Numbered from the stretch's first letter, positions 1 through 48,944 are shown. The stretch is 60,045 nt of DNA from ANME-2 cluster archaeon (GCA_014237145.1 JAAXOC010000007.1:1-60045), one strand, 5' to 3'. Notes: generated from the sequence alone by a model not told the origin. A program made the numbers and translations.

Positions 1-147
1 CAGAATGATGAAAACTTAGGAGCTTATTATACTAGGAAAATCGAGAATGGGAAACACCACAAATCAGCATTGAATGCTTTAGCAGCTAAGCTATTGAGAA
101 TTGTATATTGGGTGTTGAAGAACGATAAGGAATATAAAGTTCAATAA
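1..147 (+). CDS. IS110-family transposase, C-terminal end (partial)
   Basis: The window opens inside an ORF whose last 48 residues are readable before a TAA stop. The tail has a Lys/Ala/Leu-rich helix (HHKSALNALAAKLLRIVYWV, about residues 19-38), which matches the C-terminal end of IS110/IS1111-type transposases, DEDD recombinases that move circular intermediates. Only this end is present, so neither the catalytic residues nor intactness can be judged. Family call is by recognition of the C-terminal pattern. The strongly folding DNA just downstream fits this family. Confidence 0.65.
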   Translation, partial: QNDENLGAYYTRKIENGKHHKSALNALAAKLLRIVYWVLKNDKEYKVQ

Positions 148-249
148 GTCAGGGAAATAATAACGGGAGTGAACCAAACAAATTCTGTCTTAGCGATAGC
201 TGTCGATTTTTATTAAATGTTTATTTCGGTGTATCCGTGTCGGTCGCAG

Positions 250-360
250 CCCTGCCTATTAGTGACGTTAAGAAATCAGCCGCCATAATGCTGTCGAGCG
301 AAGCGAACCCCGAAGGGGCGACAGCTTTATGAGAGGTTGATTTTAGTCACGTTGGCAGGG
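250..360 (+). ncRNA. long imperfect hairpin downstream of the IS110 transposase; candidate guide (bridge/seek) RNA
   Basis: Six helices pair in nested order: 250-256 with 354-360 (7 bp), 262-266 with 346-350 (5 bp), 274-278 with 338-342 (5 bp), 284-288 with 327-331 (5 bp), 290-296 with 319-325 (7 bp) and 308-311 with 315-318 (4 bp, GAA loop). They are separated by unpaired internal loops. Imperfect direct repeats of about 35 bp (222-257 and 392-426, both ending GGCCCTGCCT or CAGCCCTGCCT) flank it. IS110-family elements encode a structured guide RNA in a non-coding end, downstream of the gene in the IS1111 branch. The pairing is seen; the RNA identity is inference. It could also be a terminator or terminal inverted structure. 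Confidence 0.35.
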
Positions 361-590
361 GGTGACATGGAATCCAGAACAACAACATGTATATTTCGGG
401 CATCTGGGGAGGGAGCGGCCCTGCCTCGCAAATCGACCGAAAGGTATAATAGTACGTTAATCTGCGTCTTGAAAATTACTGAAAAATATAACTGTATCAG
501 ACCATATATCTTACGCTATTGTATGGTTGACGTGACACTAGTACACAAAGAAACCCAAAGATTTAATATCTAGTGTATAATAAAGTAACT

Positions 591-602
591 TACTATATAG
601 TA
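591..602 (+). promoter_or_regulatory. TATA box within a 12-bp palindrome before the ATPase at 618
   Basis: TACTATATAGTA is a perfect palindrome containing a TATA-like core, about 20-25 bp before the ATG at 618. That spacing would place transcription start at or just before the start codon. A repressor bound here would block TBP. Seen: the sequence and spacing. Inferred: promoter function. Confidence 0.45.
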
Positions 603-617
603 CACGAGAGATTAGAT

Positions 618-1994
618 ATGTTTGTGAACAGGAACAAGGAACTTGCAATTCTTAACAACACACTTCTAAGCGACAGGGCCGAACTTTTCGTACTCTACGG
701 CAGGCGCAGGGTCGGGAAGACTGAACTTCTAAAGCAGATACTCACTGCTAACAAAAAAGCTGTGTATTTTCTTGGCAGGTCTGAATCTCCAAAAGATATG
801 GTACTGCGGCTATCAAATATTGTTGCTAAAAAGTTTAATGATGAGCGGCTTGCGAAATTTCCGTTCAGGGACCTTGATGAAGCATTCCATTATTTTGCAG
901 GGAAAAAAGGTCTGGTTATAATTTTAGATGAGTTCCCGTACATGGTGTCGTCATACCCTGCCCTGCCATCTATAATGCAGGATTACTGGGATAATCGGCT
1001 GAAGAATACTGACATAAAGATATTCATCTGTGGCTCATCCATAGGAATGATGGAGAAGCATTTCTTCAACTATTCTTCTCCTCTTTATGGAAGGAGGACA
1101 AAACAGTTCAAACTCCAGCCTTTGCGTTTTCCAGCACTAAAAGACTTCTTTCCATCCGCCGGTCTTGAAGAACTACTTGCAATATATGCAGTGTTCGGAG
1201 GGACACCAGCGTACATGTTAGAATATGAGAATGACATCTTCGAAACTATCAGGACCAGAATATTAAGAAAAGAAGAATTCCTGCACAAGGATGCAGAATT
1301 CATCCTGAGAGAAGAACTAAGGGAACCAAGGTATTATTTCTCGATCATACGCTCCATAGCATTCGGGAACACCACCACAGGGAGAATAATGAATGATACA
1401 GGCATTACAAAGGATGTAGTAGCCAAATATCTCTCAACACTCCAGGACCTTGATATCATTGAGCGCCATGTTCCTGTTACAGAGAATATCAAATCCCGTA
1501 AAGGCATTTACAGAATAAAAGACAATTATTTCAGGTTCTATTTCAGGTTCATTTTTCCATACATGGAATATATCGAAATGGGTGAAGAGGATTTTGTACT
1601 CAGGGAAATCAAAACTAATTTCCAGAGATACTCGGGTCTGGTATTTGAGTACGTCGTGACCGATCTCATTAAAGAGAACAGGAATCTCATCCCAATGCAG
1701 TTCACCAGGATTGGAAGCTGGTGGAGCGCGGGAGAGGAAATTGATATAGTGGCAATTAACGAAAATACCGGGGAGATCCTGTTTGGAGAAGTTAAATATA
1801 CGAACAAAAAAGTTGGAGTAAAGACTTTGAATGCTCTTCGGGAAAAAGCGAAAAATGTTAAGTGGGGAATCGAGAACAGGATTGAACACTATCTGGTTAT
1901 CAGCAGGAGTGGATTTGAAAAGGATATCATGGACAGGGATATCACGCTTATAGATCTGAAAGCGCTGGAAAGAATTACAAAAATCCGTAATTAG
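618..1994 (+). CDS. archaeal P-loop ATPase with C-terminal nuclease-like DUF234 domain
   Basis: 458 aa from the ATG at 618, chosen because a TATA box lies about 25 bp upstream and the homologous start in the gene at 2308-3726 aligns; an in-frame ATG at 573 would precede the promoter. Walker A is GRRRVGKT (residues 28-35); Walker B is IILDEF near residue 102; a GSSIGMM sensor-like motif follows. A winged-helix region leads to a C-terminal DUF234 domain with EIDIVAI...GEVK, the acidic/Lys pattern of restriction-endonuclease-like folds. Members of this family are common, often multicopy, in archaea. Their role is unproven; toxin-like, defence or mobile roles have been suggested. Well separated from neighbours, so probably monocistronic. 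Confidence 0.8.
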   Translation: MFVNRNKELAILNNTLLSDRAELFVLYGRRRVGKTELLKQILTANKKAVYFLGRSESPKDMVLRLSNIVAKKFNDERLAKFPFRDLDEAFHYFAGKKGLVIILDEFPYMVSSYPALPSIMQDYWDNRLKNTDIKIFICGSSIGMMEKHFFNYSSPLYGRRTKQFKLQPLRFPALKDFFPSAGLEELLAIYAVFGGTPAYMLEYENDIFETIRTRILRKEEFLHKDAEFILREELREPRYYFSIIRSIAFGNTTTGRIMNDTGITKDVVAKYLSTLQDLDIIERHVPVTENIKSRKGIYRIKDNYFRFYFRFIFPYMEYIEMGEEDFVLREIKTNFQRYSGLVFEYVVTDLIKENRNLIPMQFTRIGSWWSAGEEIDIVAINENTGEILFGEVKYTNKKVGVKTLNALREKAKNVKWGIENRIEHYLVISRSGFEKDIMDRDITLIDLKALERITKIRN

Positions 1995-2064
1995 AAATTG
2001 GATTGGAATTAGAATTAACTTCTACCTTTCATCTCCCCTCTCAAACTTAGAAACTCCCACATCC

Positions 2065-2251
2065 ATAACTGGAAAATGATACAGTGTCGGTTCAATCACC
2101 TCTAATATACCCAAGACTTGTCTTTCCTTCCTCTATGGACCGTGATTCAAGTATGAACCTTGCATCAAGATGTTGAAGCGCATGACATACTTTTTTCCAG
2201 TCAACAGTCCCCTGTCCGGCAGGCAGATGCTCGTCTTTTGTACCATGGTTA
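2065..2251 (-). pseudogene. displaced 3' end of the sugar-phosphate isomerase gene
   Basis: This stretch closely matches 4221-4434, the last roughly 150 coding bases of the isomerase at 4276-5061 plus its 3' flank. Differences are scattered substitutions and a short indel in the flank. Similarity stops at about 2251, just past the TACCATGGTTA segment. No start or active-site core is present. It lies on the far side of the second ATPase gene, so the ATPase is bracketed by two copies of this 3' end. Confidence 0.85.
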
Positions 2252-2307
2252 CTCTGCACACTCAGCGTTTTTCAAAGCACTTGCGCTCTGTTCAAAAGTC
2301 TGTATCC

Positions 2308-3726
2308 TCAAATATTTTCAAAATCTCCCAGATCAAACAACAAAAACCCCTCTTGCTCTGCAAACTTCTCTGCCCTGCGCGTAAAACCAGCTTTCGATAT
2401 CACTGCAAAATATTCTGTTCTTTCCCCGGTATACCAGTTAACGAATCCGGATTTCTTTTGCAGATCCTCTAAAACACCAGCATCCGTCTTTTTGTTCTCC
2501 CATTTGCACTCACAAAACAGGATATCCTTTGTATTTTCATTTAAAGCAACAATATCGATTTCATAGGTATTCTTCCCTCTCTCACCCCTGAACCTGTCCC
2601 ACTGCCTTCCGATCTTCCCAAAAACAAAAGGGAGTTTATTTGATCTGTTCAGTTCTATCAAAAACTGCTGTGCTATATCTTCAAACGATCTACCTGTAAA
2701 TGTGTTCAATTCCGCAGTTATCTTTTCCATCACACGCGAAGTGTTTCCTATCTCAAGCTCGGAATAGTTCGGGTATATGTACCTGAACCAGAATCTAAAG
2801 AAATTGTCTTTTATCAGGTAGATACTTTTTTTGCTTTTTTCCTGTTCTGTAACCGGGATCTCTTTTTTCAGGAGATCCATATCGTTTATCAGGACATTAA
2901 GATAATAGTCGATCGAAGTCGTTTTTAAGCCGGAGCTAGCAGCAATTTCAGACGATCTCGATACACCCTTTGAGATGTATTTTAAGATGTTGAAGTAGCT
3001 ATAACTGTCTGATATCTCAGTTTTTATCAGGATCTCGGGCTCGTTGTAGAGAATGCCTGTTCTGGACAGCATACGTTGTATGTTTGCCATGACGTCCCTG
3101 CTCTCAACGTCTTCGAGGTATTTCGGAGTGCCGCCGTATATCGCATATATCTCAACAAGCCTGTTCGTGGGAAACGAAGGAAACCACTCTTTTAATGCAA
3201 AAAAGTTAAACGGCTGGAAATAAAGCTGCCCGGTCCTTCTCCCGTACAGGGGGGATGCATGATCGAATATCTTGTGCATCATGCCTATTGATGAGCCTGA
3301 AACTATCAGAAACATTTTTGAATCTTTTGCATATCGGTCTATGAATTCCTGCAACAATGAATAAATGCCCTTGTTGATATTAAAAAACCTCTGGAATTCA
3401 TCAAATATCACTATCATCTGCCTGTTCTGAGAGTGCACGAAGAGCTTTTCGAATATTTCGTTCCATGATGGTGTCCCGATGAAGCTCAGTTCGAAGCTCT
3501 CATGTAATTTTCTTGAAAGCTCAAGCCGGGTATCCATATCGTTAAGCTCAGGCACAAGGAAGTAACTGTAGTTTGACCTGTTTGTTATGAATTCCTGAAT
3601 AAGCCTTGTTTTCCCAAGCCGCCGCCTCCCGATAACTGAAATGAACCTAAAGTCCTGTTTATTGTACTCCTCTTCAAGATACTTCAGTTCATCTTTTCTG
3701 TTAATGAATTCAGATTTTATTGTCAT
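2308..3726 (-). CDS. archaeal P-loop ATPase with C-terminal nuclease-like DUF234 domain (second copy)
   Basis: 472 aa, homologous over its whole length to the ATPase at 618-1994 but on the opposite strand. Walker A is GRRRLGKT; Walker B is VIFDEF; GSSIGMM is conserved; the C-terminus has YEIDIVAL...ECKW, again nuclease-like. The start at 3726 (MTIKSE) is preferred over an in-frame GTG at 3744, because a TTTAAAT TATA box at about 3750-3758 puts transcription start almost on this ATG. A 20-bp palindrome lies between TATA and start. The gene sits between the intact isomerase and the displaced isomerase tail, suggesting insertion. Confidence 0.8.
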   Translation of the reverse strand: MTIKSEFINRKDELKYLEEEYNKQDFRFISVIGRRRLGKTRLIQEFITNRSNYSYFLVPELNDMDTRLELSRKLHESFELSFIGTPSWNEIFEKLFVHSQNRQMIVIFDEFQRFFNINKGIYSLLQEFIDRYAKDSKMFLIVSGSSIGMMHKIFDHASPLYGRRTGQLYFQPFNFFALKEWFPSFPTNRLVEIYAIYGGTPKYLEDVESRDVMANIQRMLSRTGILYNEPEILIKTEISDSYSYFNILKYISKGVSRSSEIAASSGLKTTSIDYYLNVLINDMDLLKKEIPVTEQEKSKKSIYLIKDNFFRFWFRYIYPNYSELEIGNTSRVMEKITAELNTFTGRSFEDIAQQFLIELNRSNKLPFVFGKIGRQWDRFRGERGKNTYEIDIVALNENTKDILFCECKWENKKTDAGVLEDLQKKSGFVNWYTGERTEYFAVISKAGFTRRAEKFAEQEGFLLFDLGDFENI

Positions 3727-3730
3727 AACA

Positions 3731-3750
3731 ATTATTGTGTACACAATAAT
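3731..3750. promoter_or_regulatory. 20-bp perfect palindrome at the ATPase promoter
   Basis: ATTATTGTGTACACAATAAT equals its own reverse complement over 20 bp. It lies between the putative TATA box (about 3750-3758, minus strand) and the ATG at 3726, covering the expected transcription start. This is where a dimeric repressor would block initiation. The palindrome is seen; its role as an operator is inferred. Confidence 0.55.
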
Positions 3751-3871
3751 ATTTAAAGAATTCTCAATTGGATGAAGCGGGTGGTCTGATTTTTTAAAAC
3801 TCCCTTATGGCAGATAGGTCTTAGTCCTGCCGCCATCGCCACTTTTGCTCTCCCAATGCGAGCGAGAAGCA

Positions 3872-4178
3872 GCGCGCCCAACCCAGCCAAATACTGTGAC
3901 AGACTGATGTGAAGCTGGAGGTATGGGATACCAGGCTGCAACGGAAGTGAAGGTTATAAGCGCCGAAATACTGATGATCTTGGAAGATTGGGAATCGAAT
4001 CAGTTCATAGTACCGTCGAAGCAGGGTAATGCCTGTGGAAGGAAGTGACTGACAGTTGAACGTTGGGACCGGGATACATCCTCCGTACTCAGATGCGGGT
4101 AAAGGATAGTAACAAAACTGTACTTGGATATCTTCCACACATGCGCGAATCGTGTACAGTAAATCAGTTCAGAAAATG
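3872..4178 (+). other. group II intron-like RNA remnant without reverse transcriptase
   Basis: This segment resembles the RNA domains that precede the reverse-transcriptase ORF in bacterial and methanogen group II introns. Features are a GCGCGCCC-type 5' stretch, a GTGAAGGTTATAAGCGCC segment, a TCATAGTACC...GTAATGCC...GGAAGGAAGTGACTGA block, and a short ORF-like start at 4141. No reverse transcriptase and no domain V/VI or 3' end are visible before similarity to the isomerase flank begins at about 4221. If correct it is a dead 5' fragment. The assignment rests on recalled motif pattern and has not been folded. Confidence 0.4.
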
Positions 4179-4275
4179 AACATCAAATCAGCGTCGATCC
4201 TTGTAAATCGTGTCTGGAAAATAACTGGAAAATGATATAGTGTAGTTTCAATTGCCTATAATTTCACCCGTAATT

Positions 4276-5061
4276 TCAATTGCCTGTAATATACCTGAGA
4301 CTTGTCTTTCCTTCCTCTATGGACCGTGATTCAAGTATGAACCTTAGATCAAGATCTTGAAGTGCATGGCATACTTTTTCCCAGTCAACAGTCCCCTGTC
4401 CTGCAGGCAGATGCTCGTCTTTTGTACCATGGTTATCATGCAGGTGCACATGTACAACCTTGTCAAGACATTTATCAAGGAATTCATCTACCCTTCCATT
4501 GGTATTGGCATGCCCCACATCAAAGGTCAGCCCCAGGTTATCACGGTCAACCGACTCGATCATACCCAGCATTTCCTCTGCCTGCCTGCCAAAGATAAAA
4601 TCCATATTGACCATATTCTCCACACCAATGGTCACATCATATCCGGCTGCAAAATCACATAACCTCTGCAGACCCTCTATATTGCGGTCCCATGCAAGGT
4701 CAGGCATCTGCATACCCAAAGGTGAAAGATGTCCCGGATGTACAACTGCCAGGCGTGAAAAAGGTGCAGACAACCCGATTATTTCCGTCATCTGTTGAAT
4801 GGTTTCGTCCCATATGTTCTCATTCAGGCTTGCAAGGTTAAGGTCTGAGAAAGGAAGGTGGATCGTAAGTGTAAGGTCGGTCGTCTCAATAACGTTTGAT
4901 ATTTTTTCCAGGTTATCACCAAGAAGGGTCTGGTTCCCTTCGCAGACGATTTCCCACCCTGAAAAACCCATATCTTCAAGTTCAAAAGCATAATCAAACG
5001 GGTCATCTACAACTGACCTACAGGAAAAACCAATCTTACCTGGCGCAATTCCGGGATTCAT
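4276..5061 (-). CDS. sugar phosphate isomerase/epimerase, TIM-barrel (AP endonuclease 2 superfamily)
   Basis: 261 aa. The xylose-isomerase-like barrel is recognised by metal-ligand segments in order: HLPFSDL, VVHPGH, GVENM, TFDVGHAN, HVHLHDN and a late ILESR. These supply the usual Glu/Asp/His ligands for divalent metal. Archaeal members often lack an assigned substrate, so isomerase, epimerase or hydrolase remain possible. Its ATG lies 1 bp after the pyrH stop, so it is the distal gene of a pyrH operon. A second copy of its 3' end lies at 2065-2251. Confidence 0.8.
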   Translation of the reverse strand: MNPGIAPGKIGFSCRSVVDDPFDYAFELEDMGFSGWEIVCEGNQTLLGDNLEKISNVIETTDLTLTIHLPFSDLNLASLNENIWDETIQQMTEIIGLSAPFSRLAVVHPGHLSPLGMQMPDLAWDRNIEGLQRLCDFAAGYDVTIGVENMVNMDFIFGRQAEEMLGMIESVDRDNLGLTFDVGHANTNGRVDEFLDKCLDKVVHVHLHDNHGTKDEHLPAGQGTVDWEKVCHALQDLDLRFILESRSIEEGKTSLRYITGN

Positions 5062-5062
5062 G

Positions 5063-5749
5063 TTACCTGCCCGGGCTCACGGAAATAAGTGTTCCGTTAT
5101 GGCGCCCGGCAGCAGCTTCATTGATGTTCCCAGGCTCCCTGCCATCGATAACAAAGGTCTTGATCCCGCACCGCTGGATGATCTTGGCTGCCAACGGGTC
5201 CAGGGGCGAGTTAGAACCTGCGCTCATGTCAGTCTTCATTACAATATCAACCAGCTGGGAAGGCGTCATTGAGGATATCTTTTCTGCTTTGCTGTCAAGG
5301 TTGGGATCAACAGTATATACCCCGTCCACTGAAGTGGCATTGATGAGCATGTCAGCCCCCACATATTCAGCCAGCACAGCCGATACCGCATCAGTTGTCT
5401 GTCCTGGTATCAGGCCTCCCATCACTACAACCCTGCCGGTAAGTGCCGCATTCCTGGCGTCCTGATAGCTGGTGAGAGGGACAGTATAGGCACTGTTTCC
5501 TAAGGCAACAATGAGGAGTTTTGCATTAATGCGGGTCATGTCGATACCGATAATGTCGCATTCCACTTCATTTGCACCCAGATCCCTGGCAGCAGTTATG
5601 TAATCCCTGGCAATCCTGCCCCCACCGACGACAATGTACGTGGTATGTTCCTCTGCAAGTGCTTGTATACTGCTGGCATATTTCCTGATCCTTTCAGGGT
5701 CCAGATTGCTTGTAAGCACAGACCCGCCAATTGAAACCACTAATATCAT
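5063..5749 (-). CDS. pyrH: uridylate (UMP) kinase, archaeal type
   Basis: 228 aa, the usual size for the short archaeal UMP kinase of the amino-acid-kinase superfamily, converting UMP to UDP with ATP. Visible landmarks are the N-terminal VSIGGSVL phosphate loop, VVGGGRIARDYI, GIDMTRINA, the conserved MGGLIPGQTTDAV and the NATSVDGVYTVDP nucleotide segment. It is followed within 1 bp by the TIM-barrel gene, so the two are probably co-transcribed. About 55 bp separate it from nadK upstream. Confidence 0.93.
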   Translation of the reverse strand: MILVVSIGGSVLTSNLDPERIRKYASSIQALAEEHTTYIVVGGGRIARDYITAARDLGANEVECDIIGIDMTRINAKLLIVALGNSAYTVPLTSYQDARNAALTGRVVVMGGLIPGQTTDAVSAVLAEYVGADMLINATSVDGVYTVDPNLDSKAEKISSMTPSQLVDIVMKTDMSAGSNSPLDPLAAKIIQRCGIKTFVIDGREPGNINEAAAGRHNGTLISVSPGR

Positions 5750-5804
5750 TGCTATTACCTGCCCCTTCTTACGTTATCTCAGGACTTAAATCCAAATGTT
5801 TTAT

Positions 5805-6629
5805 TCAATGTAATTTGCTTTTTACTTTATCGTAGAAACCGTCGGTATTTATACGTACGAACCGGGCCGGTGTAGCTGCCTTTTTAATCCGGATGATGTC
5901 ACTGGAAGAAATTACCTGCGAGAACTGCCCGTCCACCACCACTTCTGCTTCTTTGTCAGGCAGCAACAGTTCCACCTTAATAGTACTCTGGCCGGGTACG
6001 GCCCACGGCCTGGAAGAGAGCTTGAATGGTGCCAGGGGTACAACTACTATGGTATCTACCTTTGGATCAACAATGGGGCCACCTGCGCTCATGGCATAAG
6101 CAGTGGAACCGGTTGGTGTGGCTATGATCAAACCGTCAGCCCTCAGTTCCTCAAGTTCATGTTCATCAACCCAGACCCTGTAAGCAAGCATCTTGGCAGG
6201 GTGGGCCGTGATGATAACCACTTCGTTAGTAGCTGGTGGAAGTTTCATGTCATTGATCCATATATCCATCCGGAACCTCTCATCCACTTCAAATCCAAAA
6301 AGTACTGAATCTATGGTCTGGAGTGCATCATCGGCTTCCACATCCACAAGAAAACCCAGGGTTCCTAAGTTTATTGAAATAACAGGTAGGGGGTCATCCA
6401 TGTGCTGGACTGTTCTTAGCACTGTGCCGTCCCCGCCGATGGTTATCACCATCTGCACACCAAGCTGGCGCATCCGGGCCACCGGGAAGCCTTCAATGCC
6501 CAGCTCACTGGCAGTACCCGGGTCAACATAGATGTCCAGTTTTTCTTTGAAATGTTCAATAATATCCCTTGCTATTTCTACAGCACCAGGCTTATCGCAG
6601 CGTGAGACCACTCCTACTTTTGTTATCAT
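5805..6629 (-). CDS. nadK: NAD kinase (ATP/polyphosphate-NAD kinase)
   Basis: 274 aa. The family hallmark GGDGT is at about residues 65-69 (VITIGGDGTVLRT), followed by NLGTLGFLVDV and later GLIIATPTGSTAYAMSAGGPIVDP, which forms the NAD site. It phosphorylates NAD to NADP. No fused phosphatase domain is visible, in contrast to some archaeal forms. Start ATG at 6629 follows a GGGGAAAT stretch. Probably the first gene of the nadK-pyrH-isomerase transcript. Confidence 0.93.
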   Translation of the reverse strand: MITKVGVVSRCDKPGAVEIARDIIEHFKEKLDIYVDPGTASELGIEGFPVARMRQLGVQMVITIGGDGTVLRTVQHMDDPLPVISINLGTLGFLVDVEADDALQTIDSVLFGFEVDERFRMDIWINDMKLPPATNEVVIITAHPAKMLAYRVWVDEHELEELRADGLIIATPTGSTAYAMSAGGPIVDPKVDTIVVVPLAPFKLSSRPWAVPGQSTIKVELLLPDKEAEVVVDGQFSQVISSSDIIRIKKAATPARFVRINTDGFYDKVKSKLH

Positions 6630-19677: not shown

Positions 19678-19912
19678 GGGTGGTACATTCTTTTGTTAGT
19701 ATTTAATGTTGAAGATATTGAGATGTAGGTGTTATCCGGATGTGTGGGTAAATATTGATGTGGCTGTCTGGATAGGTGTGTGGTTGTGTTTGGGGTGCAG
19801 TGGGATTGGTCTTGAGTGTTGGGGGGTGTTTTTCATGTGCAGGAGGGGGTGAAACCGCTATATGCAGGTGCGATATATTGTATTGAAAATATCGTGACTG
19901 CTACAAATTACC
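19678..19912. other. intergenic region with G+T-rich strand
   Basis: No gene is seen. From about 19720 to 19860 the plus strand is strikingly rich in G and T (for example GTGTTGGGGGGTGTTTTTC), so the strand that would be transcribed into the ABC operon is C/A-rich. Runs of G could form a quadruplex. The ABC promoter must lie at its left side. Confidence 0.5.
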
Positions 19913-25332: not shown

Positions 25333-25498
25333 TTACTTATTTATCTCAATTATTTAAGTACGTTTTCAATTTATTCATATTTTTAGAAATCTCCTTGGCA
25401 TGTCGCATGACTTCAGTTTAGGCAAACCTGAGTAAGTAAGTCTTTCCTGAAAAGAGTGATGTCGCCTTGAGGCAGATGGGGCAAAGTATGGAAGGATA
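25333..25498. promoter_or_regulatory. hsdR promoter and flank
   Basis: The minus-strand TATA-like element is at about 25353-25362. The segment at about 25406-25457 (ACTTCAG...TGAGTAAGTAAGTC) has an imperfect direct counterpart at 25697-25752, flanking the small ORF at 25499. Confidence 0.4.
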
Positions 25499-25681
25499 TT
25501 GAGAAAATATACAGCCAAAAACGAAAAGGATCTTGTAAAACAGATAGAGAACGATCCAAAAATAGATGAAGAGTGGGAAGAGCCTGTTAAGGGTCATGTA
25601 GTTAAAATAAAGCATGAGGAAGAATGTGTAAATCTGGCAGATGTAAGAATAACTAAAAAATCAGAGGCAACCGTCGCATAA
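25499..25681 (+). CDS. small hypothetical ORF, possibly a remnant
   Basis: 60 aa from a TTG start with GGAAGGA just upstream. The protein is rich in Lys and Glu (KNEKDLVKQIENDPK; EEWEEPVKGHVVKIK) and has no hydrophobic segment. I do not recognise it. The reading frame continues open upstream for about ten codons, so it could be the end of a lost gene. Direct repeats on both sides suggest a small inserted segment. Confidence 0.35.
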   Translation: MRKYTAKNEKDLVKQIENDPKIDEEWEEPVKGHVVKIKHEEECVNLADVRITKKSEATVA

Positions 25682-37511: not shown

Positions 37512-37839
37512 TTTCCTATACATAAGAATACTTCATTTGTCATCTGTTAAGGAGTTTGACATAGTCGGCATGTATTATTTTCCAAAAGACCAATGATTTC
37601 AAACGATTCTCCAATTTAATTTAAATCGAACACGTATGACACGGATTTATCTATTATCCGTGCAATCCGTGTTCCATTACAATATTACTCTTAACCGATG
37701 ACACATGGAGAATACTTGTTCTGGATGAGTTCACTGGAAATCTTGAACCCAACGTGATAGATATGAAGAATGGGCACAGAGGCTACCTCACTGAAATAAA
37801 AGCTATTTTCCGGGGAATTCCTGAATTCACTAATGCTTA
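37512..37839. repeat. non-coding stretch with a dispersed repeat
   Basis: Contains an inverted repeat (37628-37675: AACACG...CCGTGTT) of the AATCCGTGTT family also seen near 21030-21090. An open stretch around 37700-37795 reads LDEFTGNLEPN...GHRGYLTEIKA, probably a decayed gene I cannot name. The 37815-37839 portion (GGAATTCCTGAATTCACTAA) is repeated at 40340, next to another PEBP copy. Confidence 0.5.
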
Positions 37840-38396
37840 TCAGCGCCCGTATTTCCCAATCATCTCTCCCTGTGTCAGGATGTGCCCTGACATGGCAGCC
37901 TCAAGCTGGGATTTGGTGGCGCCGCTCTTCAGGTCGAGTGTGATATCCAGGGCATATGCCTTGAAGAAATATTTGTGTGTCTTGCCAGGCGGCGTCCAGG
38001 GTCCGTCATAGCCGATCCTGCTAAAGTCGTTCTTGCCCTGCAGGCTGTCGTCGTCCAGGGTCTTTTTCTTGGGCACCGCACCGGGCAGTCCTGTGATGTT
38101 GGCAGGTATGTTGTAGATCACCCAGTGGGCCCAGGTTTTACCGGGTGCGTCGGGGTCGTCCACGACAACGGCGATGGAGTGCCTGCGGGGACGGTGTTCC
38201 AAGACAGGTCGGGTGATACATCATTCCCGTCACATGTGTATTCGGACGACAGCATACCCACGTTCTCAAATACGTCCGAAGAAATCGATATTGCATCCAT
38301 ATTTGTATCCTCCTCTATCAGGGTCTCTTCATCAGGCTCACTGGCAATACATCCTGAAATAAGTACCAATAGCACAAGAATCAAAAAGATCCGCAT
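37840..38396 (-). pseudogene. PEBP/YbhB-like lipoprotein, frameshifted copy 1
   Basis: The start at 38396 gives a lipoprotein signal (LILVLLVLISGC) and CDGNDVSPDLSWNTVPAGT, then the frame breaks at about 38180. Compared with the intact copy at 44962-45519, four bases are missing between the GCGATGGA and GTGCCTGCGG segments. After the break another frame continues with VVVDDPDAPGKTWAHWVIYNIP and ends MIGKYGR. Unless the sequence is in error, the gene is inactive. Confidence 0.85.
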
Positions 38397-38431
38397 GATG
38401 AAATCCTCCTTTACCAGAGTTTACTTTTCAA

Positions 38432-38515
38432 GTATTAATGCTTTTTTCCCCTCAACCGCTCAAACACGCCTTCCACCTGCGCAACCGCAGTCTCGATATC
38501 CCCCTCGGCATTCTA
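38432..38515 (-). pseudogene. purB 3'-end remnant, short
   Basis: About 80 bp beginning TCAAGTATTAATGC resemble 45552-45630, the end of the purB tail copy, with the same spacing to the PEBP gene. So a PEBP-purB junction was copied here too. Similarity ends about 38515. Confidence 0.65.
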
Positions 38516-40242: not shown

Positions 40243-40365
40243 TGTTCCATATTTGGTTTTCTGTATTATATATCATTGCATGTATGGGTTTTAGCATTGT
40301 AATTACAATGCATGGGTGAAATAACAGTTCGTTTTACTGGGAATTCCTGAATTCACTAATGCTTA

Positions 40366-40907
40366 TCAGCGCCCGTATTTCCCTATCATCTCTCCCTGTG
40401 CCAGGATGTGCCCTGACATGGCAGCCTCGAGCTGGGATTTGGTAGCCCCGCTCTTTAAGCTGATGTAGTATCCAGGGCATATACCTTGAAGAAATACCTG
40501 TGTGCCTTGCCCGGTGGCGGGCAGGGTCCGTTATAGCCGATCCTGCCAAAGTCATTATTACCTTGCAGGCTGCCGTCGTCCAGGGTCTTGTTCTTAGGTA
40601 CCGCAGCGGGCAGTCCAGTGCTGTCGGGAGGTATGTTGTAGATCACCCAGTGGACCCAGGTTTTGCCGGGGGCGTCGGGGTCGTCCACTATCAGGGCGAT
40701 GGACTGTGTGCCTGCGGGTACGGCCTCCCATGTGAGTGCAGGGGAGCGGTCCTCCCCATCACAGGTGTATTCGACTGGCAGGCTGGTGTCGGCTTTAAAG
40801 GCATCTGAAGATATTGAGATTTGCTCCATTATGGTCTCCTCTTCTGTTTGGTTGGATATACATCCTGAAAATAATACCAGTAGAGCGATAATCAAGAAGA
40901 CCCTCAA
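40366..40907 (-). pseudogene. PEBP/YbhB-like lipoprotein, frameshifted copy 2
   Basis: Start at 40907: signal and lipobox LLVLFSGC, then CDGEDRSPALTWEAVPAGT and DDPDAPGKTWVHWVIYNIP. The frame is lost at about 40463, where one G is missing from the AAGCTGAGTGTAG segment of the intact gene; the last 30 residues continue in another frame to IGKYGR. The ORF still gives 150 aa, so partial function is possible. The break differs from that of copy 1, so the two decayed independently. Confidence 0.8.
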
Positions 40908-44397: not shown

Positions 44398-44961
44398 ATA
44401 TAACTCCAATCTCCCGATTTTTTCGCATCCACTTTATAGTCATTCACTCACAGCGCTGCCGCGCCAGTCGTTCCCGTACAAATACCAGTCAGCAGCGTCG
44501 ATATCCAGTTGTGAATTATGCTATTCCCGATACTTCTCACATTCTTTGCAAGAATATACTTTACACTACAACTCCTCTTTTTTTTCCATCTCACATCCCA
44601 CAATGGAATTCGAATTATGAAATTGCGTAAATCCTGTTCTGAATATTTGATAAATCATAAAAACTCAAGGCACATTAATCTTTTGATTTTACCATAATAT
44701 ATTTATAAAATTATATCAACAATTTTATATGAACATGGTAAAAGACCAACAATGCCCGAAGAACACAGAGACTTTTTATTACTTACTGGGACGATTCAGA
44801 AAACCGCAGAGAGCGCGGAGGCACGCAGAGAAAAATAACAACACTCTGCGTCCTCTGCGGTGTATCTTTTTTGCCGCGATTCATTTATCTAGAATAAATT
44901 AAAAGTCTCAGAACACAATCGTAAAAGAATGACCCCCGGTTCGCGGCAGCTACATACTCAA
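44398..44961. repeat. non-coding stretch with dispersed inverted repeat
   Basis: No gene seen. 44803-44864 carries CCGCAGAGAGCGCGGAGGCACGCAGAG and the complementary CTCTGCGTCCTCTGCGG, an inverted repeat about 60 bp across, related to the CACAGAG repeat at 41706-41780. Confidence 0.6.
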
Positions 44962-45519
44962 TCAGCGTTCGTATTTTCCTATCATCTCTCCCTGTGCCAG
45001 GATGTGCCCCGACATCGTGGCCTCAAGCTGGGATTTGGTAGCGCCGCTCTTTAAGCTGAGTGTAGTATCCAGGGCATACACTTTGAAGAAATACCTGTGT
45101 ACCGTGCCCGGCGGCGGGCAGGGTCCGTTATAGCCGATCTTGCCAAAGTCGTTATTACCTTGCAGGCTGCCGTCGTCCAGGGTCTTGTTCTTTGGTACAC
45201 CCAGGGGCAGTCCAGTGCTGTTGGCAGGAATGTTATAGATCACCAAGTGGACCCAGGTTTTGCCGGGGGCGTTCGGGTCGTCCACTATCATGGCGATGGA
45301 CTGTGTGCCTGCGGGGACGGTGTCCCAGGACAGGTCGGGTGATACATCACTGCCATCACATGTGTATTCGGACGACAACATACCCCCGTTCTCAAATACG
45401 TCTGACGAAATCGATATTACATCCATATTTATCTCCTCCCCCACAGTCAATTCAACTGGCTCACTGGCTATGCATCCTGAAATAAGTACCAGCAGCACAA
45501 GAATAAAAAATATCCTCAC
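44962..45519 (-). CDS. PEBP/YbhB-like lipoprotein, intact copy
   Basis: 185 aa. Lipoprotein signal LVLLVLISGC (Cys near 17). The PEBP core has CDGSDVSPDLSWDTVPAGTQS, DDPNAPGKTWVHLVIYNIP and GYNGPCPPPGTVHRYFFKVYALD, including the ligand-site Asp-Pro and His residues. PEBP-fold proteins bind phosphate-containing ligands; the cargo here is unknown. It follows a purB 3'-end copy. Two frameshifted paralogues lie at 37840 and 40366. Confidence 0.88.
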   Translation of the reverse strand: MRIFFILVLLVLISGCIASEPVELTVGEEINMDVISISSDVFENGGMLSSEYTCDGSDVSPDLSWDTVPAGTQSIAMIVDDPNAPGKTWVHLVIYNIPANSTGLPLGVPKNKTLDDGSLQGNNDFGKIGYNGPCPPPGTVHRYFFKVYALDTTLSLKSGATKSQLEATMSGHILAQGEMIGKYER

Positions 45520-45557
45520 GATGAAATCCTCCCTTACCAGACTTTCCTTTTCAAGTA

Positions 45558-46052
45558 TTAATGCTTACCCTTCAACCGCTCCACCACAGCCTCAACCTGC
45601 TCCACAGCAGTCCCGATATACCCCTCCGGGTCCATAACACCCTCAATCTCCTCAGCACTGATAAACTCAGTCACCTCAGGCTGCGACATCAGTACCTCCT
45701 TCATATGCCTGCCCGACTCGCGGGCCTCCATGGTACTGGTCCTCACAATCTCATGTGCCTCCTGCCTGCCCAGAATCCGCTTAGCCAGCTCGATCATCAC
45801 AGCCTCAACCATGTTCAGCCCTCCCATAAGTTCCAGATTGCGACTGATATTCTCATGATAGAAACGCAGGTTTGCAATAATATCCTCAGCCAGTTTCAGG
45901 ATATGGTCTGTCAGTACGCAGGTCTCGGGAAAGATCACACGCTCACTTGAACTGTTGGTCAGGTCCCGCTCATCCCACAGCGTATTGTTCAGCAGTTCAG
46001 GCTCAACCATTGCCCTGACTATCCGGGCCAGACCGCATACCTGCTCACTCTG
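45558..46052 (-). pseudogene. displaced 3' half of purB
   Basis: About 495 bp with roughly 90% identity by eye to the end of purB at 47613-48110 and the same frame, from GLARIVRAMVEPELLNNTL to EAVVERLKG, ending at a stop. Similarity stops sharply at about 46052, where sequence of the ATPase region begins. The first two thirds of the enzyme are missing. The longest ORF, from an internal start at 46010, is 150 aa. Confidence 0.88.
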
Positions 46053-46055
46053 AAA

Positions 46056-47387
46056 TCAATATAACACACTTAGCATCCAGAACCAGATTGGGCGCACATG
46101 AATACGTATCCCGTCCTGTATAATATCATCATATTCACTATCGGTCAGTATCAAACTATCTTCAAGTCCATATTGTTGAGCTGCATCTGACAGAGCATTG
46201 ATCTCTCTTTTTTGAGTTTTAGGATCTGCAAGTGATTCTGTGACCTGTATGGCGTTGGTTATGTCCAATCCTTCTTTTATTAAAAAATCACATTCAACTC
46301 CAGTTCTGGAATTTTTGTGGTAATAGATATCGCTGTTCCTTCTTTTAAGTTCAATAAACACGGTATTTTCAAGGAGACGACCATAATTCCTGGAAAATCT
46401 GAATCCTGCTGAACACGCAAGTCCAGTATCTAAACAGTATGTTTTTGACTTGGTTTTGATCTGTTCTTTATAAGAGTATGAATACTGTCTTAAATAGAAG
46501 AAAAGATACGCCTGTTCAAGGTCAAAGAGGTATTCCTGTATAGTATTAACAGAAGAATTGAATGTCTTTGCCAAGTTGTTTATGGAATATGTCTTTGCAG
46601 TGTTTGTTGCCAGAAATATTGCCATTTCTTTTACCAATCTGGCATTCCTTATGTTAAAACGCACAACTATATCCTTAAATATTATATTTTCAATATATTC
46701 ATTCAGCCTGCCATATGGCTTTGTTTCATCAAGGAACTCCGGTATTGAACCAAAATCTACATACATATTGAACAACTGTTTTATCTCATTTTTCTGAGAT
46801 TCAAGAGTGAAATATGAACTTGCGTTTATTTTCACATTATGATAGTGGAGATATTCTCCAAATGAAAAAGGATATACAGTCAATGTTGAGGTCCTGCCTG
46901 TCACTAGTGTCCCAAGCTCCTTTGACAATAGTTTTGAATTTGAACCGGTTATGATGAATTTTATTTTTACTTTTGCATCCCTGTCATATTCTGTTCGCAA
47001 GAAATGTTCAAAACCCCCTATATTCTGTATTTCGTCTATGAAAAAGTAGATATTCTTTTTTGGATTTATATTCTCTTTATACGTTTCAAGTACTGCACTT
47101 AAAAGTTCAAGTGAATGGTGGGGATACAGCCTGTAATCCTCAAGATTCAGGTATAATACCTGTTCTCTGCCGATCCCTTTCTCTATCATCTTACTGATTG
47201 TCTGTTTTAATAATACTGTTTTTCCGGTCCTTCTTGGACCTGTTATAATGGTTATTGATTTTGAATAGAGCAAATCTTTCATCCTGACCATGTAATGCTC
47301 TCGTTCGATATACTCTTCATTAGTAAAATCTTTGAACCAGTAATTCTGGTCTCTCAGGATTTCAAATATCAGGCTCTTTTTAAGCAT
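46056..47387 (-). CDS. P-loop ATPase with DUF4143-type C-terminus
   Basis: 443 aa from the ATG at 47387, chosen because a TTTAAATAAT TATA box (about 47408-47417) lies 25 bp upstream; an in-frame GTG at 47396 exists. Walker A is GPRRTGKT, Walker B is YFFIDEIQ, ITGSNSKLLS is the sensor, and VTGRTSTLTVYPFSFGEYL the family's signature stretch. A winged helix leads to GVECDFLI...AIQVTESL, nuclease-like. Sits between intact purB and the displaced purB tail, as the ATPase at 2308 sits between isomerase copies. Three operator-like sites lie upstream. Confidence 0.82.
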   Translation of the reverse strand: MLKKSLIFEILRDQNYWFKDFTNEEYIEREHYMVRMKDLLYSKSITIITGPRRTGKTVLLKQTISKMIEKGIGREQVLYLNLEDYRLYPHHSLELLSAVLETYKENINPKKNIYFFIDEIQNIGGFEHFLRTEYDRDAKVKIKFIITGSNSKLLSKELGTLVTGRTSTLTVYPFSFGEYLHYHNVKINASSYFTLESQKNEIKQLFNMYVDFGSIPEFLDETKPYGRLNEYIENIIFKDIVVRFNIRNARLVKEMAIFLATNTAKTYSINNLAKTFNSSVNTIQEYLFDLEQAYLFFYLRQYSYSYKEQIKTKSKTYCLDTGLACSAGFRFSRNYGRLLENTVFIELKRRNSDIYYHKNSRTGVECDFLIKEGLDITNAIQVTESLADPKTQKREINALSDAAQQYGLEDSLILTDSEYDDIIQDGIRIHVRPIWFWMLSVLY

Positions 47388-47420
47388 CAATATCACATAG
47401 CAACAAAATTATTTAAACTT

Positions 47421-47502: not shown

Positions 47503-47612
47503 TGATTTGAAAAACCTTTATGTGCAATAAATAGATATTCATCTGCAGTTAGTTTTCTATTAATTGTTATGCAGCAGACTATACTTCATCACTCGCTGTT
47601 TCATATTAATGC

Positions 47613-48944
47613 CTACCCCCTCAACCGAACCACCACAGCCTCAACCTGTTCCACCGCAGTCCCGATATACCCCTCCGGGTCCATAACGCCCTCAATCTCT
47701 CCAGCACTAATAAACTCAGTCACCTCAGGCCGTGACATCAGTACCTCCTTCATGTGCCTGCCAGACTCGCGGGCCTCCATTGCACTGGTCCTCACAATCT
47801 CATGCGCCTCCTGCCTGCCCACACCCCGCTTTGCCAGCTCGATCATCACAGCCTCACCCATATTCAGCCCACCCATTAGCTCCAGGTTGCGCTTGATATT
47901 CTCAGGGAAGAACCTTAGATTTGCAATAATACCCTCAGCCAGTTTCAGGATATGGTCTGTCAGTACGCAGGTCTCGGGAAAGATCACACGCTCGCAGGAA
48001 CTGTTGGTCAGGTCCCGCTCATCCCACAGCGTATTGTTCAGCAGTTCAGGCTCCACCATAGCCCTGACAATTCTGGCCAGACCGCATACTTGCTCGCTCT
48101 TAATAGGATTGCGCTTGTGAGGCATGGTGGACGAACCCACCTGCTTCTTGCCAAAACTCTCCTCTATTTCTGCGATCTCGCTGCGCTGCAGAGAGCGGAA
48201 TTCCACGCATATCTTATCCAGGGTAGTGACCGTGTTTGCCATCCACATCACAAACTCAGCATGCCTGTCCCGCTGTATGATCTGGGTGGACACCTCCACA
48301 CTGCCCAGGCCCAGGTATTCCATAGTACGCCGCTGTACCTCAATACCGTCCGCTCCGAAGGCAGCCTGGGTACCTACAGCACCCGTCATCTGTCCCACTG
48401 CGGCCCTGGGCTCAAGTTCGTCCAGCCTTGTGAGGTGCCTGTCCATTTCGCTGGCCCAGACTGCGAAGCGCAGACCGTAGGTGGTAGGCACTCCTATCTG
48501 CCCGTGTGTCCTGCCGACACAGACCGTGGTTTTGTGCTTATCTGCCATTTCAACAAGAGCATCCCTGACAGCTATGGTCTTGCTGCGCAGCAGGGCTATA
48601 CTTTCCTTTATCTGCAAGGCAAGCTGGGTATCAAGCATATCATTGGAAGTGGCACCGAAATGAACCCATTTACCTGCTGTCCCACACTGCTCTGACATTG
48701 CCATGACCACAGCCATCATATCGTGGTGTATCTCGTCCTCTATCTCATTGACCCGTTCAAGTTTCACACAATCCACTGCTGCTGCAATGGTATCGGCCGC
48801 ATCCCCTGGTATCATGCCCACATCAGCTTCAGCCCTGGCCAGGGCTGCCTCTACCTGGAGTAATTTTATAAGTTTAGATTCCTCACTCCATACCTGCTTC
48901 ATTTCAGCAGTACCGTAACGAAATTCAATTGGATGTATTGCCAT
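47613..48944 (-). CDS. purB: adenylosuccinate lyase
   Basis: 443 aa. Fumarase/aspartase-superfamily signature SSTMPHKRNPIKSE lies at about residues 270-283, with the TSNDMLDT and GRTHGQIGVPTTYG segments holding active-site residues. It acts twice in purine synthesis (SAICAR and adenylosuccinate cleavage). Full length. Its 3' end has diverged from the displaced copies at 45558-46052 and 38432-38515, which may be the original ends. Confidence 0.95.
   Translation of the reverse strand: MAIHPIEFRYGTAEMKQVWSEESKLIKLLQVEAALARAEADVGMIPGDAADTIAAAVDCVKLERVNEIEDEIHHDMMAVVMAMSEQCGTAGKWVHFGATSNDMLDTQLALQIKESIALLRSKTIAVRDALVEMADKHKTTVCVGRTHGQIGVPTTYGLRFAVWASEMDRHLTRLDELEPRAAVGQMTGAVGTQAAFGADGIEVQRRTMEYLGLGSVEVSTQIIQRDRHAEFVMWMANTVTTLDKICVEFRSLQRSEIAEIEESFGKKQVGSSTMPHKRNPIKSEQVCGLARIVRAMVEPELLNNTLWDERDLTNSSCERVIFPETCVLTDHILKLAEGIIANLRFFPENIKRNLELMGGLNMGEAVMIELAKRGVGRQEAHEIVRTSAMEARESGRHMKEVLMSRPEVTEFISAGEIEGVMDPEGYIGTAVEQVEAVVVRLRG

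Follow-up and report, generated by a model that had tools for sequence, protein, structure and literature searches.

The 3′ end of an isomerase-like gene occurs twice in the archaeal DNA analysed here, once in the intact gene and once, truncated and displaced, behind a functionally unrelated ATPase gene. This arrangement is real and old, and it exemplifies an acquisition scar that is found repeatedly. We give a probability of about 0.58 to the reading that the segment was left by an additive recombination, in which the cargo arrived linked to the 3′ end of a relative's copy of the host gene. The stretch analysed (the window) is a complete contig of 60,045 bp (G000:C7) from a genome of 2.97 Mb in 118 contigs (G000). 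Its relatives are Methanosarcinales/ANME-2 metagenome genomes; the comparison genomes include the congeners G002, G003, G004 and G005, and G010, which belongs to another genus.

The host gene, the one whose 3′ end is duplicated, is intact on the minus strand (4276–5061) and encodes a xylose isomerase-like TIM barrel protein of 261 aa (Pfam AP_endonuc_2, PF01261, E 2.4e-42). Along the minus strand, it is followed by its 3′ flank, a group II intron fragment in antisense, a DUF234 ATPase gene and a second isomerase 3′ end. The first repeat copy, comprising the 3′ end and 3′ flank of the intact gene, spans 4221–4442 and the displaced copy with its flank 2065–2258, both on the minus strand. The sequence-only reading had placed isomerase 3′ ends with flank on both sides of the ATPase, which alignment confirms: 2091–2251 matches 4275–4435 at 92.5% identity over 161 bp (E 1e-63) and 2065–2096 matches 4221–4252 at 91% over 32 bp (E 1e-5), while an ungapped comparison of 2091–2258 with 4275–4442 gives 91%. 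Only 160 bp of the repeat are gene tail, the remainder being 3′ flank. The copies have diverged by 8–10%, here as at purB (see below), and hence neither copy is recent. The isomerase 3′ flank also includes a 65-nt intergenic repeat (4179–4243), present about 20 or more times in the genome, which may serve as recombination homology.

The insert between the copies (2259–4220) contains the ATPase gene and the intron remnant only. The ATPase (2308–3744, minus strand) is an AAA+ protein with the ATPase_2 P-loop domain (PF01637, E 1e-25) and the C-terminal DUF234 (PF03008, E 2e-30) that define the DUF234 archaeal ATPases, an additional weak Mrr_cat match, a Walker A motif (GRRRLGKT) and a PD-(D/E)XK-like EID...CECK motif. 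On its 3′ side, comparison with the G002 locus L039 places the junction with the displaced tail at a 17-nt filler (2252–2268, minus strand). A second DUF234 ATPase gene, identified by ORF and Pfam (573–1994, plus strand), adjoins the displaced tail convergently; G003 has this gene elsewhere, with flank up to window-equivalent 2088. Excision of the roughly 2.1-kb segment between the isomerase repeats is possible, and no excised allele was found among the assembled genomes.

The plus-strand RNA at about 3896–4125, antisense to the ATPase gene, had been called intron-like, a description that stands in reduced form. The window copy has no Rfam match of its own, even at E values up to 10, and a relaxed-threshold search of window positions 1–6000 returned chance matches only. 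Its homologues in G000 and other genomes match group-II-D1D4-6 (RF02005) with 74–105 bits, and several carry a reverse-transcriptase ORF behind them, which identifies the window copy as a remnant of a group II intron, corresponding to part of D1–D4. It has an internal deletion of about 235 nt and no reverse transcriptase, so that a fragment alone occupies 3896–4125, not a full intron with ribozyme domains I–VI. The sequence separating ATPase and isomerase is thus homologous to group II introns of the RF02005 type, but only as a truncated piece. The purB case lacks it, and the congener has lost most of it, with window-equivalents 3866–4037 (172 bp, intron side) missing although the rest of the arrangement is retained. 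These absences led us to reject intron-driven insertion as a general cause, and with it the earlier suggestion that the process is tied to the intron. Elsewhere in the window, a DUF3800-X RNA (RF02984) was detected on the plus strand at 25430–25501 with 38.5 bits (gathering threshold 38.2).

Comparison with relatives shows that the isomerase arrangement is older than the G000 genome. G002 has the same order of isomerase, ATPase (96% identical) and displaced tail, and the ATPase–tail edge is common to both genomes. The displaced tail of G002 is longer, at about 410 bp (−264 to +143 relative to the stop), and the homology between its copies reaches window-equivalents 4543 and 4133; about 108 bp still present in G002 are missing from the G000 tail, where a short filler stands instead. 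G010 carries the ATPase gene twice, with 95% identity to that of G000 and 99.8% between the two copies. An 89-bp piece of isomerase sequence, 142 bp away from one of them, matches G000 better (89%) than it does the isomerase gene of G010 itself (79%). The isomerase of a distant relative (L120) is followed by a DNA methylase gene, between copies of the 3′ flank.

A second case in the window involves purB (47613–48944, minus strand; PF00206 and PF10397) and had been put forward as having the same architecture, which is indeed the case. An AAA_14/DUF4143 ATPase gene (46056–47396, minus strand; Pfam) is followed, 2 bp from its stop, by a displaced purB 3′ end (45549–46054, minus strand) that extends from −490 to +14 relative to the purB stop and leads into a PEBP gene; the repeat (45549–46054 versus 47599–48103) is 90% identical over 507 bp. 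PEBP-family genes occur three times in the window (37839–38506, 40365–40906 and 44961–45626), and purB tail pieces upstream of two of them (38426–38506 and 45549–45626) represent further displaced purB ends. A 69-nt remnant of a seryl-tRNA synthetase (SerRS) tail lies beside an ABC transporter gene (19783–19851), and in the equivalent place in G003 a HicAB pair stands between two SerRS tails (L212, 1525–1646 and 2490–2628), away from the SerRS gene. A candidate clean empty site for this cassette (G003 C114 versus window 19851/19857) was rejected; G000 looks like a deletion product there.

The two cases had been taken to reflect a process rather than chance, with an enrichment of gene-end copies around such ATPases as the expected signature. 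Profile searches returned about 48 DUF4143/DUF234 matches in G000, and a DUF4143 search found one such gene altogether in three genomes of other families that consist of 1–2 contigs each (G019, G027 and G031). For the G000 survey, about 433 kb surrounding ATPases was compared with 790 kb from elsewhere in the genome as control, a tail-only copy being defined as an ORF tail with a same-strand copy nearby where the head and middle have none. Of the 38 testable ATPases, 11 lie between direct flank-to-flank repeats and 27 do not; among the other ORFs, the proportion so bracketed is 23 of 212 (p=0.008). Tail-only copies were found for 14 of the 289 ORFs near ATPases and for 6 of the 533 control ORFs (p=0.0016), i.e., they are about four-fold commoner around ATPases, and head-only copies numbered 4 and 6, respectively. 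Hence a process, not chance, is borne out, and the enrichment around ATPases is moderate, because the counts of both sets contain a small number of paralogue pairs and wrongly called ORFs and because the ORFs of one region are not independent.

The tie to DUF234/DUF4143 ATPases that the sequence-only reading proposed did not hold. Host genes, some of them named by eye from sequence, include purB, thiD/thiN, Elp3, a NifB-like gene, seryl-tRNA synthetase, TfuA, a CobB-like gene and an ABC transporter ATPase gene. The cargo between tail copies comprises Pfam-confirmed Fic, UPF0150/HicB, DUF433 with DUF5615, DUF2283, PemK/MazF, PIN and UPF0175 genes, HicA with a Pfam match below the cut-off, and a lipoprotein gene. 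Because toxin-antitoxin, Fic, DNA methylase and lipoprotein cargo is bracketed likewise, the process is genome-wide and without ATPase specificity; the presence of toxin-antitoxin and other cargo in control regions also weakens the case for an ATPase-specific element. Cargo turns over among congeners: behind the CobB-like gene, G000 has the lipoprotein gene, G002 a MazF pair with a larger displaced tail (−1000 to +7, with a gap), and G004 no displaced tail.

Across loci, duplications measure about 50–1000 bp. Homology between host gene and displaced copy mostly ends between −13 and +38 of the stop, and left edges are spread between about −50 and −490, as would be expected of recombination within the gene because coding homology ends where the donor cargo begins. 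Some left edges recur, at −278/−280 for Elp3 (G000, G002 and G004), −258 for ThiD (two G000 contigs and G004) and −143/−144 for SerRS (G002 and G003). For Elp3 (copies B and C) and ThiD, homology continues past the left edge; sequence common beyond the edge implies that an ancestral junction was copied and recombined, and therefore that junctions travel. Arrays of the form gene, first cargo, tail, second cargo, tail occur at L146, L172 and L080. At L080 (G000 C100, 43500–59000), Fic, HicB, two ATPases and repeated Elp3 tails stand behind Elp3. The hicB and hicA genes are adjacent in G004 (L197) and separated by about 3.8 kb of array in G000. An IS200-type Y1 transposase gene lies directly behind the ThiD tail at thiD in G002 (L204) and behind an ectopic ThiD tail in G004 (L207, contig C337, 3314–4008); such a transposase is a possible route by which gene tails are moved.

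The origin of the duplicated ends is best seen at TfuA. The full gene of G005 matches that of G000 at 94–100% between −1900 and about −380, and at 66–79% from there on. The full gene of G004 falls to 61–81% in the last 300 nt, and the displaced copy of G004 is mostly 91–95% identical, with 86% in the last 60 nt and 81% at its very start. The comparison of tail with head divergence gives p=4e-9 and 2e-8. By these identities, the cargo in G004 and G005 is clearly joined to a foreign 3′ end, and the displaced copy in G004 is recognisable as the native end, TfuA being the one gene at which both are seen. In G005, the cargo consists of an OpuC-like transporter, a proline dehydrogenase-like gene and an ATPase. 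Across the TfuA loci (L107 and L190–L192), the last ~100 codons vary strongly among congeners and the remainder is nearly identical, the appearance of a replaceable C-terminus.

Weaker signals of this kind come from the window. Between the full isomerase genes of G000 and G002, divergence is 4.1% upstream and 11.3% within the duplicated part (p=0.0014), and for purB it is 4.5% in the head and 8.6% in the tail (p=0.004); the purB excess is not significant against G003 (p=0.14). These values are suggestive of incoming 3′ ends that differed from the resident ones. Gene ends may evolve faster in any case, and gene conversion between the copies could also produce the isomerase and purB signals. In the full CobB, ABC, ThiD, Elp3 and SerRS genes, the tail is no more diverged from congeners than the head. 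Almost wherever the comparison could be made, displaced copies resemble the full copy of their own genome slightly more than those of other species, which also fits duplication within the lineage; gene conversion or lineage-internal duplication thus also act, or mimic the pattern. The full ABC gene at L159 is cut at −10 and its displaced copy retains the end found in relatives, a structure that also suits duplication of the target.

According to the additive-recombination reading, the incoming DNA would have carried the 3′ end of a relative's isomerase gene, with the intron remnant, and the DUF234 ATPase gene directly behind it. This piece would have recombined with the resident gene through the common gene sequence, and its far end would have been attached by an illegitimate join within that gene or its flank. 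An equally possible course is that the piece was first circularised and then integrated by a single crossover. Either way, the full-length gene would now have the incoming 3′ end, the cargo would come next, and the resident tail would lie downstream of it, reduced to a truncated duplicate; the final structures of one-sided recombination and circle integration are identical, and the two are inseparable here. We infer that the isomerase and purB cases arose by a route like that at TfuA, and the cargo would then be retained through addiction or defence functions. A broader and rather doubtful extension is that gene 3′ ends are general docking sites for toxin-antitoxin, ATPase and restriction-modification modules, which would pass from species to species attached to host-gene tails, settle by homology behind the corresponding gene and build stacked, tail-shuffled arrays. 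If true, housekeeping genes would carry an integrase-free cassette system, possibly helped by the ATPase-nuclease proteins.

Among other explanations, a long target-site duplication is an unlikely one that still accounts for much of the structure. A staggered break or distant nicks in the gene 3′ end would be filled in as cargo is captured, predicting an insert between direct repeats of 100–500 bp that are identical at first and diverge later. The structure fits, L146 is readable as nested duplications (−124 to +259, then −106 to +5) and L159 as a duplication of −277 to −10, and at most loci the full and displaced copies have not diverged beyond congener divergence. The literature on rice and other eukaryotes also discusses break repair that yields insertions with tandem duplications. 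Against this explanation stand the foreign tails with a displaced native tail at TfuA, tail copies as long as about 1 kb (CobB in G002), right edges clustered at stop codons and multi-gene inserts such as that behind TfuA in G005.

It is improbable that serial tandem duplication of a gene end and its downstream cargo, followed by partial deletion, built the segment with no need for foreign DNA. The short tails do resemble deletion remnants (the isomerase and CobB copies of G000 are shorter than those of G002), and purB tail with PEBP occurs more than once in the window. However, successive array units carry unrelated cargo (L146 and L080), the cargo behind one gene differs between congeners, and the ATPase is 95% identical in another genus.

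Integrases at tRNA genes act on elements that carry a restoring copy of the gene tail, and a dedicated element could similarly mobilise itself to gene 3′ ends, by the ATPase-nuclease or another enzyme, with a restoring tail. The abundance of DUF4143/DUF234 matches in G000, the four-fold enrichment, the intact Walker A and EID...ExK-like motifs and the near-identical ATPase in another genus point in this direction. Such an element is nevertheless decidedly improbable, in view of the many tail-bracketed inserts without an ATPase, the majority of tested ATPases without such repeats, and the failure to find a common terminal sequence or a fixed target. Finally, misjoining of contigs at repeats in a metagenome bin is scarcely credible: all genomes with the pattern appear to be metagenome assemblies and contigs often end at tails (G004 C270 and G005 C18), but arrangement and ATPase edge are identical in two separate assemblies (G000 and G002), and tail copies diverged by 8–10% must be distinct loci.

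A displaced native tail behind cargo is a readable scar of the gain of toxin-antitoxin or defence-like genes in uncultured archaea, without recognisable mobile elements. Because the scar reveals the anchoring host gene, often with both alleles, gene gain in ANME-type archaea becomes countable with no data beyond assemblies. The presence of truncated housekeeping-gene copies in such genomes, which can mislead gene counts and break assemblies, is accounted for as well.

Several known systems resemble parts of this pattern. Integron cassette arrays likewise hold serial cargo, many toxin-antitoxin pairs among it, separated by repeats; unlike theirs, the archaeal repeat is the end of the upstream host gene and is locus-specific, and neither an integrase nor an attC-like site was found in the isomerase insert. 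An integrase-mediated island would differ from the 2259–4220 insert, which encodes no integrase or recombinase and is bracketed by a repeat of 160–400 bp, not a short att core. A transposon with target-site duplication does not agree with the variable duplication length, and the window contains no inverted-repeat pair of at least 60 bp. In hotspots flanked by core genes, accessory genes are likewise replaced in the absence of mobile elements, through homologous recombination within the flanking core genes (PMC5635113); there, a double crossover leaves no duplicated gene end, whereas the archaeal case leaves a displaced tail on one side.

Homology-facilitated illegitimate recombination (HFIR) was described in Acinetobacter, Streptococcus and Pseudomonas stutzeri and in E. 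coli conjugation, and single-crossover integration of recircularised linear DNA is also documented in bacteria (PMC3240628). As in HFIR, a homologous anchor on one side and a non-homologous join on the other would add foreign DNA beside a resident gene, and the displaced tails do end in non-homologous junctions at arbitrary gene positions (isomerase, purB and others), the original junctions being old and rearranged. The difference is that HFIR is known from laboratory transformation or conjugation in bacteria, while here it would be read from scars that recur at the housekeeping genes of an archaeon.

The closest parallel described is the displacement of type VI secretion system (T6SS) effector 3′ ends in Vibrio cholerae, which proceeds sequentially and leaves arrays of orphan immunity genes, and for which an HFIR-like mechanism was proposed (PMC5361080); that paper also cites C-terminal displacement in Rhs proteins (Jackson 2009). 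The literature matches listed for DUF234/DUF4143, mostly on type VI secretion, contain no discussion of these ATPases, and no description of 3′-end displacement at archaeal housekeeping genes was found in the literature searched, which included few subscription journals. In the T6SS and Rhs systems, as here, a new 3′ end is inserted with a downstream gene, the old 3′ end is displaced and remnant arrays accumulate. In T6SS, however, the displaced 3′ end is the polymorphic toxin itself, whereas in the archaeal case it is an ordinary coding end, the host gene remains intact and the cargo is functionally unrelated. Hence, with T6SS and Rhs displacement as known relatives, what appears to be new is the setting, namely archaeal housekeeping genes with unrelated cargo.
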